From contig NZ_CP064786.1 in NCBI RefSeq assembly GCF_017094485.1, positions 930,001 through 994,000 of the forward strand: a stretch of 64,000 bases of DNA, in the 5' to 3' direction. Origin of the DNA: Natranaeroarchaeum sulfidigenes. Lineage in GTDB: Archaea; Halobacteriota; Halobacteria; Halobacteriales; Natronoarchaeaceae. The notes under the pieces are model-generated. The model saw only the letters and a list, made by a program, of their open reading frames with translations. It had not been told where the DNA came from and did no database searches. The translations under genes were made by a program, and so were the position numbers. This document shows positions 16,758 through 23,771 of the stretch, piece after piece (position 1 is the first letter of the stretch; each line of letters opens with the position of its first letter).

Positions 16758-17408
16758 ATGGCTGTTGGGTCCCGTACCGACGACGAACCGGCCGCAATTC
16801 CGCCAGTAGAGGACCGTAACCTGCGGGTCGTCCTCGAGATCGAACGTGGCGGCCCCTGTGTGATGGACGCGATCGAGGGAGACATCGTCGATCTCGACGT
16901 CCGACTCGACCAGGATCACTGCAACCTCGATATCGCGGTCCGCGACGAGGAGGAGAGCGTCTCCACGAAGCATACCTCGAACGAAATCTGTGATCATTGC
17001 CCCGGGGTAGTGTTCTCGGAGTACGGCTGTCTGCCACGATATTTGGAGGTTGGGGACGGGGAGTTCGTCATGGAAACGTACGTCTCGGATACCGAGACGG
17101 TCGCCGAGATCGTCGCGGAGGTCCGGGAGATCTGTGCCCGCGTCTCCGTGCAGAGCATCGTCTCGACCGACGGATCGGAGTTCCGTGAGCTCTGTTCGGT
17201 CGACGTGTCGGAACTGACCGCCAAACAGCGTGAGGCGGTAAACGTGGCCCAGGAGCTCGGGTACTACGATCCCGACGCATCCGTTCCGATGGAGAAGATC
17301 GCCGACGAACTGGGGATTTCCCTGTCGGCGACGTCCCAGCGACTGCGACGGGCGGAATCGAACGTCATCCGGCAGCTCTCCTGTGACTGTTCGTGCTGGG
17401 AGACGTGA
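16758..17408 (+). CDS. dmsR: Bat-type HTH regulator, DmsR-like
   Basis: 216 residues. The C-terminal HTH of the Bat type (about residues 155-205, LTAKQREAVNVAQELGYY then IADELGISLSATSQRLRRAE) is clear. The N-terminal sensor has scattered cysteines (CDHC near residue 77, YGC near 90) and the very end is SCDCSCWET, hinting at a metal or redox cofactor. In Halobacterium a Bat-type regulator DmsR sits beside and activates the DMSO/TMAO reductase operon; this gene is placed the same way, directly upstream of a respiratory operon on the same strand. Symbol is by analogy. Confidence 0.78.
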   Translation: MAVGSRTDDEPAAIPPVEDRNLRVVLEIERGGPCVMDAIEGDIVDLDVRLDQDHCNLDIAVRDEEESVSTKHTSNEICDHCPGVVFSEYGCLPRYLEVGDGEFVMETYVSDTETVAEIVAEVREICARVSVQSIVSTDGSEFRELCSVDVSELTAKQREAVNVAQELGYYDPDASVPMEKIADELGISLSATSQRLRRAESNVIRQLSCDCSCWET

Positions 17409-17446
17409 CGAACTTCCGCGCAGATCATCAGTTATAGCCGACCTCA

Positions 17447-17472
17447 TATAAAATCCGAATTGATCCCGGGTT
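17447..17472 (+). promoter_or_regulatory. promoter of the rhodanese lipoprotein gene, shared extended element
   Basis: A TATA box ATATAAAA starts at 17447 and is followed by GAATTGATCCCG at 17458-17469. The same 26-base layout recurs at 18905-18930, with 22 of 26 bases identical. The spacing from the TATA centre to the shared core places the core over the predicted transcription start, so it could be an operator or a strongly constrained initiator. The gene starts at 17506. Confidence 0.65.
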
Positions 17473-17505
17473 ATTCTCAACGACCCCCTTTGCGTAGTCC
17501 TGCAT

Positions 17506-18795
17506 ATGGATCGTAAGCTGGATCGACGGCGATTCGTACAGATCACTGGCGCGGCCGGACTCGGTGCCCTCGCTGGCTGTCTCGGTGACGACGAGCCGGC
17601 GTCCGAAAACGAAGAGGAGAATGGGACGGAAAATGGCGACGAATCGGCGAACGGCGAGGAAGAAGAGGAGACCCAGGAGGATGTTCCGGATCCGACGGCG
17701 ACCGAGAACGCCCTGATCGAACCGGCGACGCTGAAAGAGTGGCACGATGTCGGACTTGTGAATCTGCAAGAACTGGACGTGCGTGACCGTGTCACCGTAC
17801 TCCGCGTCTGGGACACCGAAACGTACGAGGACGGTCATGTGCCCGGCGCGCTCAAGTGGGCGCCGGACGAGTTCCACGCCGCACGGGTGGAAGGGCTGGG
17901 CGAAGCCGCGCCGATGGTGCCCGACGGAGCACAGATGGACGAAGTATTACAGCGAAGCGGTGTCTGTCCACGGACCACGATCGTACTTTCGGGACCGAGT
18001 GCGCTCCGAACGGCGAGAGCGTACTGGACGCTCCGGTACTGGGGCTTCCCACGTGAGCGAATCAAGGTCCTCAACGGCGGGTACAACGCCTACGGTGAGA
18101 AGTACGAACTGGAGACCGGCGGTGAACCCGACGCGCCGGCAGCGACGTTCAGCGTGGAGGCCAACGACGAGTTGAACAACGAGGACCGCCTCGGAATCGC
18201 ACAGATGATCCAGCGCGTCGACCTCAAACAGAAGGGCGAACGAGAGGACGTCTTGCTCGACAACCGGGCCGATCCCGACGCGACGATATCGACCGCGATC
18301 ATCGACGATCCGGCGAACTACCACGAAGGTGATAGCTACTCGACGAAGTTCGCCGAGGGAGGTCACTGGAAGGATGCCGACGAACTCGAATCCCACATCT
18401 TCGACCTCGACGGCGTCGCGGAAGGAGATACGATTGTTACCTTCTGTGGGAGCGGCTATCGTGCAACGATGGGCTACTTCGTCCTTGACGGGCTACTTGG
18501 CTACGACGACGTCACCGTCTACGACGGCTCCTTTTCCAGACAGTGGGCCCAGTACGACGGGAATAACACCGAAGGCAACGTTCCGCCGGAGGAGTGGCGT
18601 GTCGATCTGAACGACCGGACGGAGGGTGATACCGGCGAGAGCGAACTGGAGATCGTCGTCGACGAGATTCCCGACCTCGATTCGGCCGACGCGAACCAGA
18701 TCGAATCCACCGACGCGGCGTACATGGCCGGCGAAGACACGGAAAGCGACGATGGCGACGGCGACGACGAGGGCGGTGACTGGGGCTGTGACTAG
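17506..18795 (+). CDS. Tat lipoprotein with two rhodanese domains
   Basis: 429 residues. The N-terminus DRRRFVQITGAAG with LAGC (Cys25) is a Tat signal with lipobox, so the protein is anchored outside the membrane. After an acidic linker there are two rhodanese folds. In the first (about 75-205) the active loop reads LSGPSALRTA, without Cys; in the second (about 225-370) it reads FCGSGYRA with Cys314 as the likely persulfide carrier. The end is acidic and Gly-rich. It could pass sulfane sulfur from thiosulfate or polysulfide to the reductase encoded downstream. Sulfur carriage is inferred from family and context. Confidence 0.88.
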   Translation: MDRKLDRRRFVQITGAAGLGALAGCLGDDEPASENEEENGTENGDESANGEEEEETQEDVPDPTATENALIEPATLKEWHDVGLVNLQELDVRDRVTVLRVWDTETYEDGHVPGALKWAPDEFHAARVEGLGEAAPMVPDGAQMDEVLQRSGVCPRTTIVLSGPSALRTARAYWTLRYWGFPRERIKVLNGGYNAYGEKYELETGGEPDAPAATFSVEANDELNNEDRLGIAQMIQRVDLKQKGEREDVLLDNRADPDATISTAIIDDPANYHEGDSYSTKFAEGGHWKDADELESHIFDLDGVAEGDTIVTFCGSGYRATMGYFVLDGLLGYDDVTVYDGSFSRQWAQYDGNNTEGNVPPEEWRVDLNDRTEGDTGESELEIVVDEIPDLDSADANQIESTDAAYMAGEDTESDDGDGDDEGGDWGCD

Positions 18796-18826
18796 GTTCC
18801 CCTACCCGCGTTTTGCGTTCCCAACT

Positions 18827-18844
18827 GAACGGCTGTAGCCGTTC
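18827..18844. terminator. perfect inverted repeat after the rhodanese gene
   Basis: GAACGGCT and AGCCGTTC form an eight-base-pair stem around a two-base centre, 32 bases after the rhodanese stop codon and 60 bases before the next TATA box. It could end the rhodanese transcript, although no T-run follows, or bind a regulator of the next promoter. Confidence 0.4.
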
Positions 18845-18904
18845 GGGTATACCACATTGTTGATCGTTCGACCCGACCGTCTGTCGACACGCATACCACC
18901 CCGT

Positions 18905-18930
18905 ATATAAAGCCTGAATTGATCCCGAGT
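18905..18930 (+). promoter_or_regulatory. promoter of the molybdoenzyme operon, shared extended element
   Basis: ATATAAAG at 18905-18912 is followed by GAATTGATCCCG at 18916-18927, identical in 12 bases and spacing to the element at 17447-17472. Predicted transcription start near 18932 lies after the in-frame ATG at 18919, which is why the small protein is started at 18976. Confidence 0.65.
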
Positions 18931-18975
18931 GCGACCTATGCGATCCAGAACCGTTGTTTCTACTGTGAGCATTCC

Positions 18976-19203
18976 ATGAGCCCAGGAAACAACCAGGATC
19001 CGCTCGAGGCACTGGCTGCACTCGATACGGATCCGGACAGAAGCGAGTACGATCAGGAACTCGGGAAACAGGTCGGGATCGACGCGATGCGTGTCGCAAA
19101 CGGCGAGCTATCCGAACGCGAGTTCCACGAGAAGTACGACAAACGACTCCGCGAGGAGTTCGGCGACGATTACACCCCGGCGGAGGTGATCGCCGATGAG
19201 TAG
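18976..19203 (+). CDS. small acidic protein at the head of the molybdoenzyme operon
   Basis: 75 residues from ATG 18976 (MSPGNNQDPLEALAALD). It is all helical and charged, with GKQVGIDAMRVANGELSEREF and HEKYDKRLREEFGDDYTPAE; no cysteines remain with this start. It overlaps the catalytic subunit start by eight bases. Similar sequences occur in haloarchaea as an N-terminal extension of ferredoxin-type subunits, as far as I recall, so it may be a detached assembly or docking piece. Function unknown. An earlier start at 18919 would add CFYC but lies before the predicted transcription start. Confidence 0.7.
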   Translation: MSPGNNQDPLEALAALDTDPDRSEYDQELGKQVGIDAMRVANGELSEREFHEKYDKRLREEFGDDYTPAEVIADE

Positions 19204-21526
19204 CGAGGACGGTAGCGGACTGACGCGCCGAAACCTGCTGAAAACCGGCGTTGCCGCTGCCGGCGCTGCCGCGCTCGGTGGCTGTCTCGACGATGTTCCC
19301 GGGCTCGGGAGCACGGATCGATCGGCGATGCCGATCGCCAACGCCGAGACCGCCTTCGGCAACTGCTGGATGTGTTGTCACAACTGCGCACAGGAAGTGA
19401 AAGTCAACGACGACACCGTCGTCGGGATCACTGGTGTCGACGGGAATCCCCGCGGGAGCGCCGGGCCCGGCACTAACGGGACGCTCTGTCCGAAGGGGCT
19501 CGCACAGCTCGACAAAACGCACGACCCCGACCGGATCAAACAGCCCTACATCCGCGAGGACGGCGAGCTACGCGAGGCGACGTGGGACGAAGCGTTCGAG
19601 TACACCGCAGAACGCCTCCGCGAGTTCGACGACGAACACGGCGCGGAGACGTTTCTCGATGCCGGCAGCTGGGCGGAGACGCCGATCTTCCGGACGATCT
19701 GGCGCGATCTCTACGGCACGCCCGAACGGATCGGCCGGGGCGTCCACGTCTGTGCTGGCCCGACGTTCGTCGCCGGCGGCATGATGGGAGTCGGCTCGAA
19801 CAACCGGATCCCGGACTACCAGAACTCGGAGTACCTCATCATGTGGGGCCGGAACCCGCTGGAGGCGTTCGCCGGGCAGTTCGAGGCAAAGGGGATCCTC
19901 AAAGCGATCGAGCAAAACGATGCCACGCTGGTGACGATCGACCCGCAGTACACCGAGACGGCCGAGAAGTCCGACGAGTGGTTGCCGATCGAGCCCCGGA
20001 CTGACGGCGCACTCGCACTGGCGATGGGCCACGTCATCATCCAGGAGGGGCTGCTCGATCTGGAGTTCGTCCAGGAGCATACCTACGGCTTTGAGGCGTA
20101 CCAAGAAGCAGTCGAGGACAAGACTCCCGAGTGGGCCGAAGAGATCACCGGTATCGATGCCGACAAGATCCGCGAGATTGCCCGTGGGTTCGCCGAGGCC
20201 GCGCCGGCTGCCGGAATCTCGATCTGGACCGGGACGGCTCAGGTGAGCAACGGCTGGAAGGCGAGCCAAAACATCACCGCCCTGAACGGCCTGGTCGGTA
20301 ATATCGATCGTCCCGGCGGGCTCCGACTCTGGAAGGGGACGCCGACCGCCGATCCGTTCGAGGTCTGTGAGTGGACGCCCGACGACAAGGGCACCGACGT
20401 GACCATCGGCGTCGACTTGCCAAACAACGCCGAGGGCAAGGAGCCTGCGCTCAACAAGTACGAGGAGTACGAGGAGTACCCGTTCCGCCACATCGAGGGA
20501 ATCGCACACAACCTCGTCCCGGAGATGGTCGAGAACGGACATATCAACGGTATCTACTGTCACCACGACATGCCGCTGAAAGACGGCAACGCCGAGGCCT
20601 GGCTCGACGCGCTCGACGAGATGGACCTCGTGATCGCCGTCGACGCCTACTGGAACGGCGTCACGCGCAACGCCGACGTCGTCTTCGCCGACGCCACGCA
20701 GCTGGAAAAGGACACGATGGGAACCGGTTCCTGGAGCGCGTACCCCGAACACCAGTGGGTCGTCGGCGGGAAGGCCGCCGTCGAGCCACAGTTCAACACG
20801 AAACCCGACTGGGAGATCCTGACCGGAATCGCCGAGGCGATGGGCTGGGGCGAGTACTTCCCGTGGGACGACCACGAGGAGTTCATCAACGACCAGCTAC
20901 AGGCGGTCGACCTCACGCTGGAGGAGCTCGACAGCGGCGAGAAGAACTACGAGCTCGTCGGCGAGTACGGTTACGAGCAGTGGCGCGACGAGGACGGCCC
21001 GGCGTTTAGCTTTGACCTCGATCAGGTCCCGACGTTCGTCCAGGCTGCCGAAGAGGCCGGGATGGATACTGCCCCCGAGTGGCAGCCGCCAGGAACGTAC
21101 GGCGACGAGCTCGGCGAGGAGTATCCGCTGAACTTCTTCGACATCCGTTCGGTGTTTTTCTCCCATGGCAGCGATCAGGGGATCGACCGCTGTCTCGATC
21201 AGTTCGCGCGGAAGAACGAACTCGAAGACGAGGACTACCGGGGCAACTACCTGCATCTCAACCCGGCCGACGCCGAGCCGCGAGGGATCGAGACTGGCGA
21301 TATGGTCACCGTCGAATCCGAGACCGGGGAGGGCGAACTGATGGCCCACGTCACCGAGACGATCAAACCCGGCTTTGTCACCGCCGAGTACGGTTTCGGA
21401 GAGGGATCGGCACAGGAAGACTACGAGGGAATGAACACGATGAAACTGCACGCCAAACAGATGGATCCGATCACGGGACAGCCGGACAGACACATCGCTG
21501 TCGACGTCCACAACGGGGGTGCCTGA
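19196..21526 (+). CDS. molybdopterin oxidoreductase catalytic subunit (PsrA/PhsA-like)
   Basis: 776 residues. A Tat signal (TRRNLLKTGVAAAG) with lipobox GGC (Cys30) sends it outside the membrane. A [4Fe-4S] site follows: Cys57, Cys60, Cys64 and Cys98 (in LCPKG). Bis-MGD binding stretches include MWGRNPLEAFAG, ATLVTIDPQYTETA and, near the end, the C-terminal domain with LHLNPADAEPRGIETGD. Cys186 in HVCAGPTF stands where the metal ligand is expected; DMSO reductases have Ser there, while polysulfide, thiosulfate and arsenate reductases have Cys. With the rhodanese neighbour, sulfur-compound reduction is favoured. Tetrathionate or arsenate remain possible. Confidence 0.88.
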   Translation: MSSEDGSGLTRRNLLKTGVAAAGAAALGGCLDDVPGLGSTDRSAMPIANAETAFGNCWMCCHNCAQEVKVNDDTVVGITGVDGNPRGSAGPGTNGTLCPKGLAQLDKTHDPDRIKQPYIREDGELREATWDEAFEYTAERLREFDDEHGAETFLDAGSWAETPIFRTIWRDLYGTPERIGRGVHVCAGPTFVAGGMMGVGSNNRIPDYQNSEYLIMWGRNPLEAFAGQFEAKGILKAIEQNDATLVTIDPQYTETAEKSDEWLPIEPRTDGALALAMGHVIIQEGLLDLEFVQEHTYGFEAYQEAVEDKTPEWAEEITGIDADKIREIARGFAEAAPAAGISIWTGTAQVSNGWKASQNITALNGLVGNIDRPGGLRLWKGTPTADPFEVCEWTPDDKGTDVTIGVDLPNNAEGKEPALNKYEEYEEYPFRHIEGIAHNLVPEMVENGHINGIYCHHDMPLKDGNAEAWLDALDEMDLVIAVDAYWNGVTRNADVVFADATQLEKDTMGTGSWSAYPEHQWVVGGKAAVEPQFNTKPDWEILTGIAEAMGWGEYFPWDDHEEFINDQLQAVDLTLEELDSGEKNYELVGEYGYEQWRDEDGPAFSFDLDQVPTFVQAAEEAGMDTAPEWQPPGTYGDELGEEYPLNFFDIRSVFFSHGSDQGIDRCLDQFARKNELEDEDYRGNYLHLNPADAEPRGIETGDMVTVESETGEGELMAHVTETIKPGFVTAEYGFGEGSAQEDYEGMNTMKLHAKQMDPITGQPDRHIAVDVHNGGA

Positions 21527-21528
21527 CC

Positions 21529-22137
21529 ATGGGTGAACAGTGGGCGTTCTACTTCGACGCGAACAAGTGTATCGGCTGTCACGCCTGCTCGGTCTCGTGT
21601 AAGCAACGCCACGACCGCGATTCGGACCAGGACGAGTGGCGGACGGTCCGCAACGTCGAGTCCGGGGAGTTCCCCGACGTGAGCTCGATGCCGATCTCGA
21701 TGTCGTGTATGCACTGCTCGGACGCACCCTGCGAGAAGGTCTGTCCGTGTAACTCGATCGAAAAGCGCGAGGAAGACGGCATCGTCACCGTCGACCGGGA
21801 CAGCTGTATCGGCTGTCACTACTGTGCGTGGGCCTGTCCGTACGGTGCGCCGACCTACGACGACGGCGGTATTATGTCGAAATGCAACATGTGCCTCGGC
21901 GAAGGACCGGGCGGCGGCCACGACATGCCACCACGCGAGGAACAGGAAGACGGTGGATCGACGCCAGCCTGTGTCGATAACTGTGTCGGCGACGCGATCA
22001 AAGCCGGGCCGGTCAGCGAACTGAAAGCCGAGGCATCCAAGGAAGCGCTCGAACGGTTCGCCTCGGAGCCGGCGAACGTGATCGTCGAGGCAGATCGTGA
22101 CGACGACGAGGCGGGTGCGGTCACTTACGAGGTGTGA
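21529..22137 (+). CDS. four-cluster ferredoxin subunit (DmsB/PsrB-like)
   Basis: 202 residues from ATG 21529, two bases after the catalytic subunit stop. Cysteine motifs for four [4Fe-4S] clusters are visible: CIGCHACSVSC, CMHCSDAPCEKVC, CIGCHYCAWAC and CNMC with CVDNC. It is the electron-transfer subunit between the membrane NrfD protein and the molybdenum site. No signal peptide; export would be by hitch-hiking with the Tat-bearing catalytic subunit. The C-terminal 40 residues are acidic and helical. Confidence 0.95.
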   Translation: MGEQWAFYFDANKCIGCHACSVSCKQRHDRDSDQDEWRTVRNVESGEFPDVSSMPISMSCMHCSDAPCEKVCPCNSIEKREEDGIVTVDRDSCIGCHYCAWACPYGAPTYDDGGIMSKCNMCLGEGPGGGHDMPPREEQEDGGSTPACVDNCVGDAIKAGPVSELKAEASKEALERFASEPANVIVEADRDDDEAGAVTYEV

Positions 22138-22141
22138 GCCC

Positions 22142-23167
22142 ATGACGACACCGGAACTGTTCTGGTTCGAAGCGGGCCACTGGGACATCTTCGTCGCGAT
22201 CTACCTCTTCCTCGGGGGCGTCTCCGGGGGGGCATACGTGGTCGCATCGATCGCCGAGACAGTCGCCGGTCGAAGCGAGTACGACGGCTACGAGCACGTC
22301 ACCCGGTGGGGGCTGCTGACGGCGTTTGTCACGATCGCCGTCGGCTCGATCACGCTGCTGTTGCACCTCTCCGGGCCGTTCCTCCGGGCGTTTACCTTCC
22401 CGGTGAGCTTCACGAACTGGTCGTCCTGGATGGCGATCGGGACTTGGGTGATCGTCCTGTTTAGCCTCCTCGTGACGATGCGGCTGGTGTGGGCGACGTT
22501 CGGGGCCGAAGCGACCGCCGATCCCAGTGGGCTCCCCCGGCACCTGGTTGCGAAACTCGGTATCGACGGGCTGCTGGACCGGCTAGCCGACGCGACTCGC
22601 CCCTCGGGTATCCTCGACGTGGGTGTGCGACTGGTCGGCGTCGGGCTGGCGGTGCTTGTCGTCGTCTACACCGGACTCCTGTTGAGCGACGTCGGGTGGA
22701 ACGTCCCGCTGTGGGATCCACGGCTGCTCCCGCTGTTGTTCCTGGCCAGTGGTGTCTCGGCCGGGACGGCTGCAGTGGTGATGCTCGCCCAGTTGACCAG
22801 CGACATCGACAGTCACCTCGTTCATCGGTTCAGCCTCTTCGACGATGCGGTCATTGTCGTTGAGATCATGATCCTGGGGATCCTACTGTACACGCTCGCT
22901 ACCGGGGGCGTCGCAGCAACTGAAACGTACGCCGCACTCACGGGGACGTACGGGCTCTTGCTGTGGGGCGGCGTTATCGGACTCGGACTCGTGGTCCCGC
23001 TCCTGATCTCGGGGGCACAGCAGGCTGTCGACCTCGTCCGAGACGAAAACGTGCTGATGACCAAACGAATCTGTTCGACGAAGTTCGGGCTGGTCATCAT
23101 GGGTTCCATGCTGTTGCGGTTCCTGGTGATTACGGCCGCAGTCAAACAGCCGGTAATCGTCGGATGA
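22142..23167 (+). CDS. nrfD: NrfD/PsrC-type membrane quinol-binding subunit
   Basis: 341 residues from ATG 22142, five bases after the ferredoxin subunit. It has about nine hydrophobic helices, starting with IFVAIYLFLGGVSGGAYVVA, a typical NrfD opening. Later helices include VGLAVLVVVYTGLLLSDVGW and VIGLGLVVPLLISGAQ. It anchors the reductase and takes electrons from menaquinol. The last residues are polar. Stop at 23167, 34 bases before the chaperone gene. Confidence 0.93.
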   Translation: MTTPELFWFEAGHWDIFVAIYLFLGGVSGGAYVVASIAETVAGRSEYDGYEHVTRWGLLTAFVTIAVGSITLLLHLSGPFLRAFTFPVSFTNWSSWMAIGTWVIVLFSLLVTMRLVWATFGAEATADPSGLPRHLVAKLGIDGLLDRLADATRPSGILDVGVRLVGVGLAVLVVVYTGLLLSDVGWNVPLWDPRLLPLLFLASGVSAGTAAVVMLAQLTSDIDSHLVHRFSLFDDAVIVVEIMILGILLYTLATGGVAATETYAALTGTYGLLLWGGVIGLGLVVPLLISGAQQAVDLVRDENVLMTKRICSTKFGLVIMGSMLLRFLVITAAVKQPVIVG

Positions 23168-23201: not shown

Positions 23202-23771
23202 ATGAACACACAACATGCCGACCTGTACGCCGCGCTTGCCTCGTGTTTCCAGCATCCCGGCAAGGACCTCGTCGCAGCGGTGCAGGATGGGACGCTCGAA
23301 GCGACTATCGAATCGGGAGTGGTGAGCCTGTCGACTGCATCCCTCGAAGACGTCCCACCGGTCGAAGATGCTGCCACAGTGCGACGGGAGTATCTCCGAA
23401 CCTTCGAGGCCTTCGAGGGCGAGTACGCGCCGCCAGCAGAATCCGCCTACGAGGAATGGTGGGACGGCACCGAGCGTGGGATCCTCTCGGGGCCGCCGGC
23501 GAGCGATATGAAGCGCCGGTACGAGGCACTCGATGCTGAGGTGCCCCCGGAGTATCCCGCCGATCACGTCTCACTGTTGCTGGAGTACGCGAGTCTCCTG
23601 CTGGACGCAGCGCAGTACGAGGAGTACGCCCGGTTTCACGCGGCCCATTTCGACTGGATTCCCGCGTTCCGCGAGCGCGTGGAGGAGACATCGGACTCGG
23701 CGTTCTACCTGTGGGCTGTCCGGTTGCTCGATTCGGTCGTCGGCGCTATGGGTGAACAATACGTCGACTGA
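23202..23771 (+). CDS. TorD/DmsD-family chaperone
   Basis: 189 residues, all helical. Features are the opening ADLYAALASCFQHPGKDL, REYLRTFEAFEGEYAPPAES, the YPADHVSLLLEYASLLLDAA helix and FYLWAVRLLDSVVGAM. TorD/DmsD proteins bind the Tat signal of molybdoenzymes and help cofactor insertion; its place at the end of the operon says it serves the catalytic subunit at 19196. Family divergence makes it hard to name more precisely. Confidence 0.85.
   Translation: MNTQHADLYAALASCFQHPGKDLVAAVQDGTLEATIESGVVSLSTASLEDVPPVEDAATVRREYLRTFEAFEGEYAPPAESAYEEWWDGTERGILSGPPASDMKRRYEALDAEVPPEYPADHVSLLLEYASLLLDAAQYEEYARFHAAHFDWIPAFRERVEETSDSAFYLWAVRLLDSVVGAMGEQYVD

Follow-up and report, generated by a model that had tools for sequence, protein, structure and literature searches.

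Haloarchaeal sulfur respiration is a recent discovery, and no account was found of how an operon that encodes it is switched on. The locus described here contains two promoters of such an operon that resemble each other well beyond the TATA box, which raises the question of what the shared sequence is for. The original prediction had proposed an operator or initiator recognised by a Bat-type regulator encoded next door. The window, the whole stretch of DNA analysed, spans 64,000 nucleotides (bases 930001-994000) of a haloarchaeal genome that consists of one contig of 3.04 Mb. Unless a contig is named, positions are those of the window, and the features are listed in Table 1.

The psr cluster and its two promoters

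The genes make up a rhodanese-type polysulfide/thiosulfate-reductase (psr) operon, preceded by the gene of a DmsR/Bat-type regulator, here called REG. The REG gene thus adjoins an operon for a respiratory molybdoenzyme, as is characteristic of DmsR/NarO-type regulators.

Table 1. Features of the psr cluster and its promoters in the window
Feature	Position	Strand	Evidence
REG, DmsR/Bat-type regulator, candidate element reader	16758..17408	+	Pfam HTH_10 58.6 bits, DmsR_N 31.5 bits (cut-off 27); orthologues at cluster
TATA box, promoter 1 (extH)	17447..17452	+	Sequence; TATAAA in nearly all orthologous promoters
Shared element, copy 1	17446..17471	+	Post-TATA bases 17453-17471; R1 E=0.012, second best in genome
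extH, ExtH-type rhodanese lipoprotein gene (sulfurtransferase)	17506..18795	+	NCBIfam NF040901 236 bits (cut-off 200); Pfam Rhodanese
TATA box, promoter 2 (psr structural genes)	18906..18911	+	Sequence
Shared element, copy 2	18905..18930	+	Post-TATA bases 18912-18930; R1 E=7.3e-8, best in genome
Candidate initiator CTAT, A at 18938 as possible +1 (inferred)	18936..18939	+	Conserved block, offsets 30-33 from first T of TATA
Small Ferredoxin_N protein (DmsE-like), first psr structural gene	18976..19203	+	Pfam PF16947 67.5 bits
psrA, catalytic molybdopterin subunit (Phs/Psr-like)	19196..21526	+	
psrB, iron-sulfur subunit, start approximate	21523..22137	+	ORF 21079-22137; start from alignment
psrC, NrfD-type membrane anchor	22097..23167	+	Pfam NrfD
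psrD, TorD-type chaperone	23202..23771	+	Pfam PF02613; NCBIfam TIGR03482 and TorD matches below cut-off

Direct sequence comparison of 17446-17471 with 18905-18930 gave 22 identical bases of 26 (ATATAAAATCCGAATTGATCCCGGGT versus ATATAAAGCCTGAATTGATCCCGAGT). This agreement had been predicted and is real; the predicted coordinates were right for the second copy, and the first copy begins at 17446, not 17447. Both promoters, 5' of extH and 5' of the psr structural genes, carry ATATAAAnnCnGAATTGATCCCGnGT. The 3.04-Mb genome has just two copies of the string GAATTGATCCCG, one at each window promoter, and none of the string's one-mismatch matches there lies behind a TATA box. Over the 19 bases following TATAAA the two copies have 15 in common (binomial P about 2e-6 for a single pair), a match that is only suggestive when taken alone, given about 1 million promoter pairs per genome. 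The similarity of the two promoters becomes decisive because it is conserved in orthologous clusters.

No significant internal symmetry was detected in the element (permutation p=0.6), and neither a dyad nor a direct repeat was supported, so that there is no clear dimer site. A CCYKAR repeat with a distance of 11 bases, spotted by eye, was not significant in a profile self-comparison (p=0.6). Covariation of the promoter pairs within genomes did not exceed chance (p=0.16).

Conservation and confinement of the shared element

Orthologous clusters were gathered around homologues of REG, and the element at their extH and psr promoters has the consensus TATAAAACCTTAAYYGRTCCCGAGTnnnnnCTAT. Promoter identity between genera is 27% (chance) upstream of TATA, 67% in the 19 post-TATA bases, and 37% further down. 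In most genomes the operon has the element at two distinct promoters that are not orthologous to each other; both have kept it in 12 genera, with identity in the flanks down to chance. Loss of the element from orthologous clusters had been named in advance as an observation that would speak against an operator; it is retained there. The cdc48 promoters proved unusable as an outside control, the DNA upstream of cdc48 being coding, and the upstream flanks and paralogous psr operons were used in their place. In genus g47 (L050-L053), the psr leader contains a conserved ATGGGAGAGTCATGATCGTG, and a conserved reverse-strand stretch between extH and the psr promoter is apparently a small gene.

The conserved part is asymmetric, spans about 19 bases and keeps a fixed distance from TATA, with no insertions or deletions from TATA to a TA initiator. 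The spacing to this candidate initiator is also fixed, TA occupying offsets 31-32 from the first T of TATA; in Haloferax volcanii the initiator is T(A/G) (PMC7289017). An ordinary haloarchaeal core promoter combines TATA with a pyrimidine-purine initiator at standard spacing and is otherwise unconserved. The present promoters depart from this layout in the high between-genus identity of the 19 post-TATA bases, despite their TATA box and TA initiator.

A sequence-only model (R1) was trained on 28 promoters, all from genera other than that of the window. In the genome of the window, R1 ranked the two window promoters first and second (E 7e-8 and 0.012), followed by a match at 0.22, and in 19 cluster-bearing genomes the strong matches were one or two psr promoters. 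Among 392 genomes of the order, 34 matches (E<=0.01) were obtained in 22 genomes, and all 34 lie at orthologous psr clusters; the remaining 370 had no match at this threshold. Filters were stricter in the order-wide scan, and weak sites such as copy 1 of the window were lost. Five of the genomes with matches (G000, G046, G267, G274 and G330) were outside the R1 training set. The element is present in all genomes with a psrA of >60% identity, as well as in G381 with 52%; G010 and G261, which have only a 50% identical psrA paralogue, are without it. A degenerate pattern run over 84,980 species genomes, a collection that may omit records near the genome of the window, returned four stretches, all haloarchaeal and all psr.

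Presence at the promoters of one operon (34/34 matches at psr clusters in 392 genomes) and absence elsewhere is the distribution of an operon-specific operator. Many matches at unrelated promoters had been named in advance as the other refuting outcome; the scans of the genome and of the order placed the element at psr operons only. Confinement had been anticipated for anaerobic respiration genes as a class, and the actual scope is narrower, namely this one operon. Chance similarity or a recent promoter duplication within the cluster, for which one might cite that a single 15/19 pair is not overwhelming genome-wide, is scarcely credible against an element kept at both promoters in 12 genera with flanks at chance level, and was refuted by the R1 scans of the window's own genome, the 19 cluster genomes and the 392 genomes of the order.

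The unbroken spacing from TATA to the TA initiator, together with the unconserved DNA upstream, would also suit a specialised core promoter, in which an extended TATA/spacer/initiator is read by a TFB/TBP variant or by RNA polymerase and not by REG. Such a promoter is unlikely, since a general factor is expected to act at more than one operon, and the element, found with psr alone in each of the 22 genomes, does not qualify as a general core promoter; moreover, paralogous regulators pair with different elements in the same position, as described below.

The adjacent regulator and its relatives

REG has a C-terminal HTH_10 domain (residues 153-205), which was found in 25/25 aligned homologues, and a DmsR_N domain, found in 24/25. 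The predicted Bat-type regulator next door is accordingly a DmsR/Bat-type HTH_10 protein. A PDB fold search with a model of REG (pLDDT 79, pTM 0.54) gave no meaningful match. The cysteine motif of NarO is reportedly C-Xn-C-X-C-X7-C. REG differs from it in having C-X2-C-X9-C (ICDHCPGVVFSEYGC), with C34 and C55 conserved, whereas the L068 regulator has the C-X-C-X7-C form. Among the psr regulators C-X2-C-X9-C replaces the NarO-type C-X-C-X7-C, and clade B (L059 copy 2, L065-L067) is without the last cysteine. A change of the sensed signal is a possible meaning of the altered motif.

A homologue of the REG family is encoded at the cluster in every element-bearing genome. In the regulator tree, the regulators of element-bearing clusters are grouped (2 changes versus 14.8 when shuffled); the element-linked homologues form two supported groups and possibly belong to one clade. 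At L059 and L060 (G012, G039), two DmsR-like genes of different clades stand in tandem 5' of psr, and some relatives keep one of them.

In 22 of 392 genomes the element recurs at the psr cluster, with essentially no occurrence outside it, and it is therefore probably the docking site of the adjacent regulator. On these comparative grounds it is probably the operator of the psr-linked REG, and it occupies the stretch from TATA to the start in the core promoters of both psr transcription units. Besides the lack of symmetry and of covariation, two observations count against REG as the reader: in G154, G100 and G381 the regulator accompanying the element is fairly distantly related (35-36% identity, clade B), and in G274 and G330 about 5-6 kb separates the regulator from the promoter. 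As to the proposed operator or initiator, confinement and conservation support the former, with binding by the neighbouring regulator as the probable reading, while the latter term is only partly apt, the candidate initiator CTAT being a separate downstream block.

The element might alternatively be read by another trans-acting regulator, such as a second HTH_10 protein encoded 3' of psrD or an unlinked one. Second HTH_10 genes do occur near psrD (L054, L056-L061, L063-L064, L066-L067), but none was found 3' of psrD in the genus of the window or in g47, where the element is strong, and a reader other than REG is improbable.

Paralogous operons provide a further comparison, made partly by eye and therefore supporting rather than decisive. 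Second psrA copies in element-bearing genomes gave no R1 matches. Most of them adjoin a different DmsR-like regulator, and several have their own conserved post-TATA block, for example CTTAAAACCCTCATCTGGTTCGAAT in L113-L115. A separate lineage of DmsR-like regulators (lineage D), about 34% identical to REG, is located 5' of a dms-type operon. Its promoters carry CTTCATAATACAGCGC...CCTACCG at the equivalent post-TATA position and are conserved only downstream of TATA (L041-L048, L154, L155, L162-L173). A model of the lineage D element (R2) matched in 13 genomes, none within the R1 set; in 11 the match is directly beside the lineage D regulator, in one it is at a contig end, and in one (G069) it is 5' of a dms-like operon about 7 kb from a regulator. 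Regulator lineage and element thus change together while the position stays constant, as expected of an operator.

The genome of the window has paralogous loci of its own. A second psrABC-like operon (L107, G000:C1:625000-634000), with a psrA about 50% identical, has its own DmsR-like regulator and the promoter CTTAAAGAGCCTCACAGTTAGGAGT, without the element. At L179 (G000:C1, about 1169228-1169800), a DmsR-like gene at 1169228 is followed by the promoter CTTAAAATACTCTACTGATACAGCATAGCACCTACCG, laid out as the dms-type element.

Mode of regulation and comparison with known systems

In the mechanism proposed for REG as reader, its cysteine-rich N-terminal domain would sense low oxygen or polysulfide and trigger binding, the HTH_10 domain would bind the element, and extH and psrABCD would thereby be switched together. 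The sign of this control leans slightly to activation from inside the core promoter over repression, because DmsR, a characterised relative, regulates positively, and the promoters of a DmsR-like lineage at dms-type operons hold an element of their own at the corresponding position. Positive control of dms by DmsR has been reported (PMC1447603). Other archaeal regulators point both ways: binding of TrmB-family regulators inhibits downstream of TATA and activates upstream of it (PMC10817205), and NarO is reported to act on nar as an activator and on dms as a nitrate-dependent repressor (PMC10062603).

The main alternative, at a somewhat lower probability than activation, is that REG or another factor is a repressor that sits between TATA and the start, obstructs RNA polymerase as long as conditions are oxic, and is released as polysulfide or anoxia changes the cysteines. 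RNA polymerase has to occupy and melt the DNA that the site spans, and both the inhibitory downstream binding of the TrmB family (PMC10817205) and the nitrate-dependent repression of dms by NarO (PMC10062603) are precedents. Repression fits less well with the positive control of dms by DmsR (PMC1447603) and with the lineage D promoters of the same layout.

Tentatively, and by analogy among the paralogues, DmsR-type regulators may constitute an archaeal activator class that uses an operator between TATA and the start, each paralogue having its own element there. Such a class, if real, would break the archaeal rule that binding downstream of TATA represses, and would resemble the bacterial MerR-type activators that bind within the spacer; activation from such a site would depart from the usual archaeal pattern, and a MerR-like logic is speculation. 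With paralogous DmsR-type regulators each having an element of its own at the same core-promoter position, activation between TATA and the start is directly testable. The analysis also supplies a concrete cis site with its likely reader, and a signature by which the psr regulon can be recognised at genome scale.

In the literature searched, which left out most subscription papers, no description of the psr element was found. The rhodanese-containing Psr operon of sulfur-respiring haloarchaea, which includes bacterioopsin-activator-type regulators, is the same gene cluster (Sorokin et al. 2018, PMC6176080); its account of the psr genes describes genes only, and promoter elements were not found in it.

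A close arrangement is that of DmsR and dmsEABCD in Halobacterium sp. NRC-1, which shares with psr a Bat-type HTH_10 regulator gene just 5' of a molybdoenzyme operon whose first gene is small and DmsE-like, and for which positive control was reported (PMC1447603). REG is only a distant homologue of DmsR, to judge from lineage D, which is taken as DmsR-like. For DmsR, no description of an operator between TATA and the start was found in the searched literature.

NarO of Haloferax and other haloarchaea is, like REG, a regulator of anaerobic respiration that belongs to the broad Bat/DmsR group; operons under its control have a cis motif. That motif, CGAAYATDKTYG, is a semi-palindrome found in 83 promoter regions of H. 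mediterranei, whereas the psr element is asymmetric, fixed in position between TATA and the start, and private to one operon. The NarO motif is absent near the psr promoters, its best matches having 2-4 mismatches at scattered places, and identity of the element with this denitrification semi-palindrome was ruled out (PMC11218638, PMC10062603). The Bat-bop system likewise combines a Bat-type HTH_10 regulator with a cis site common to co-regulated promoters. Its site is an upstream activator sequence and lies upstream of TATA, whereas the psr element lies downstream of TATA.
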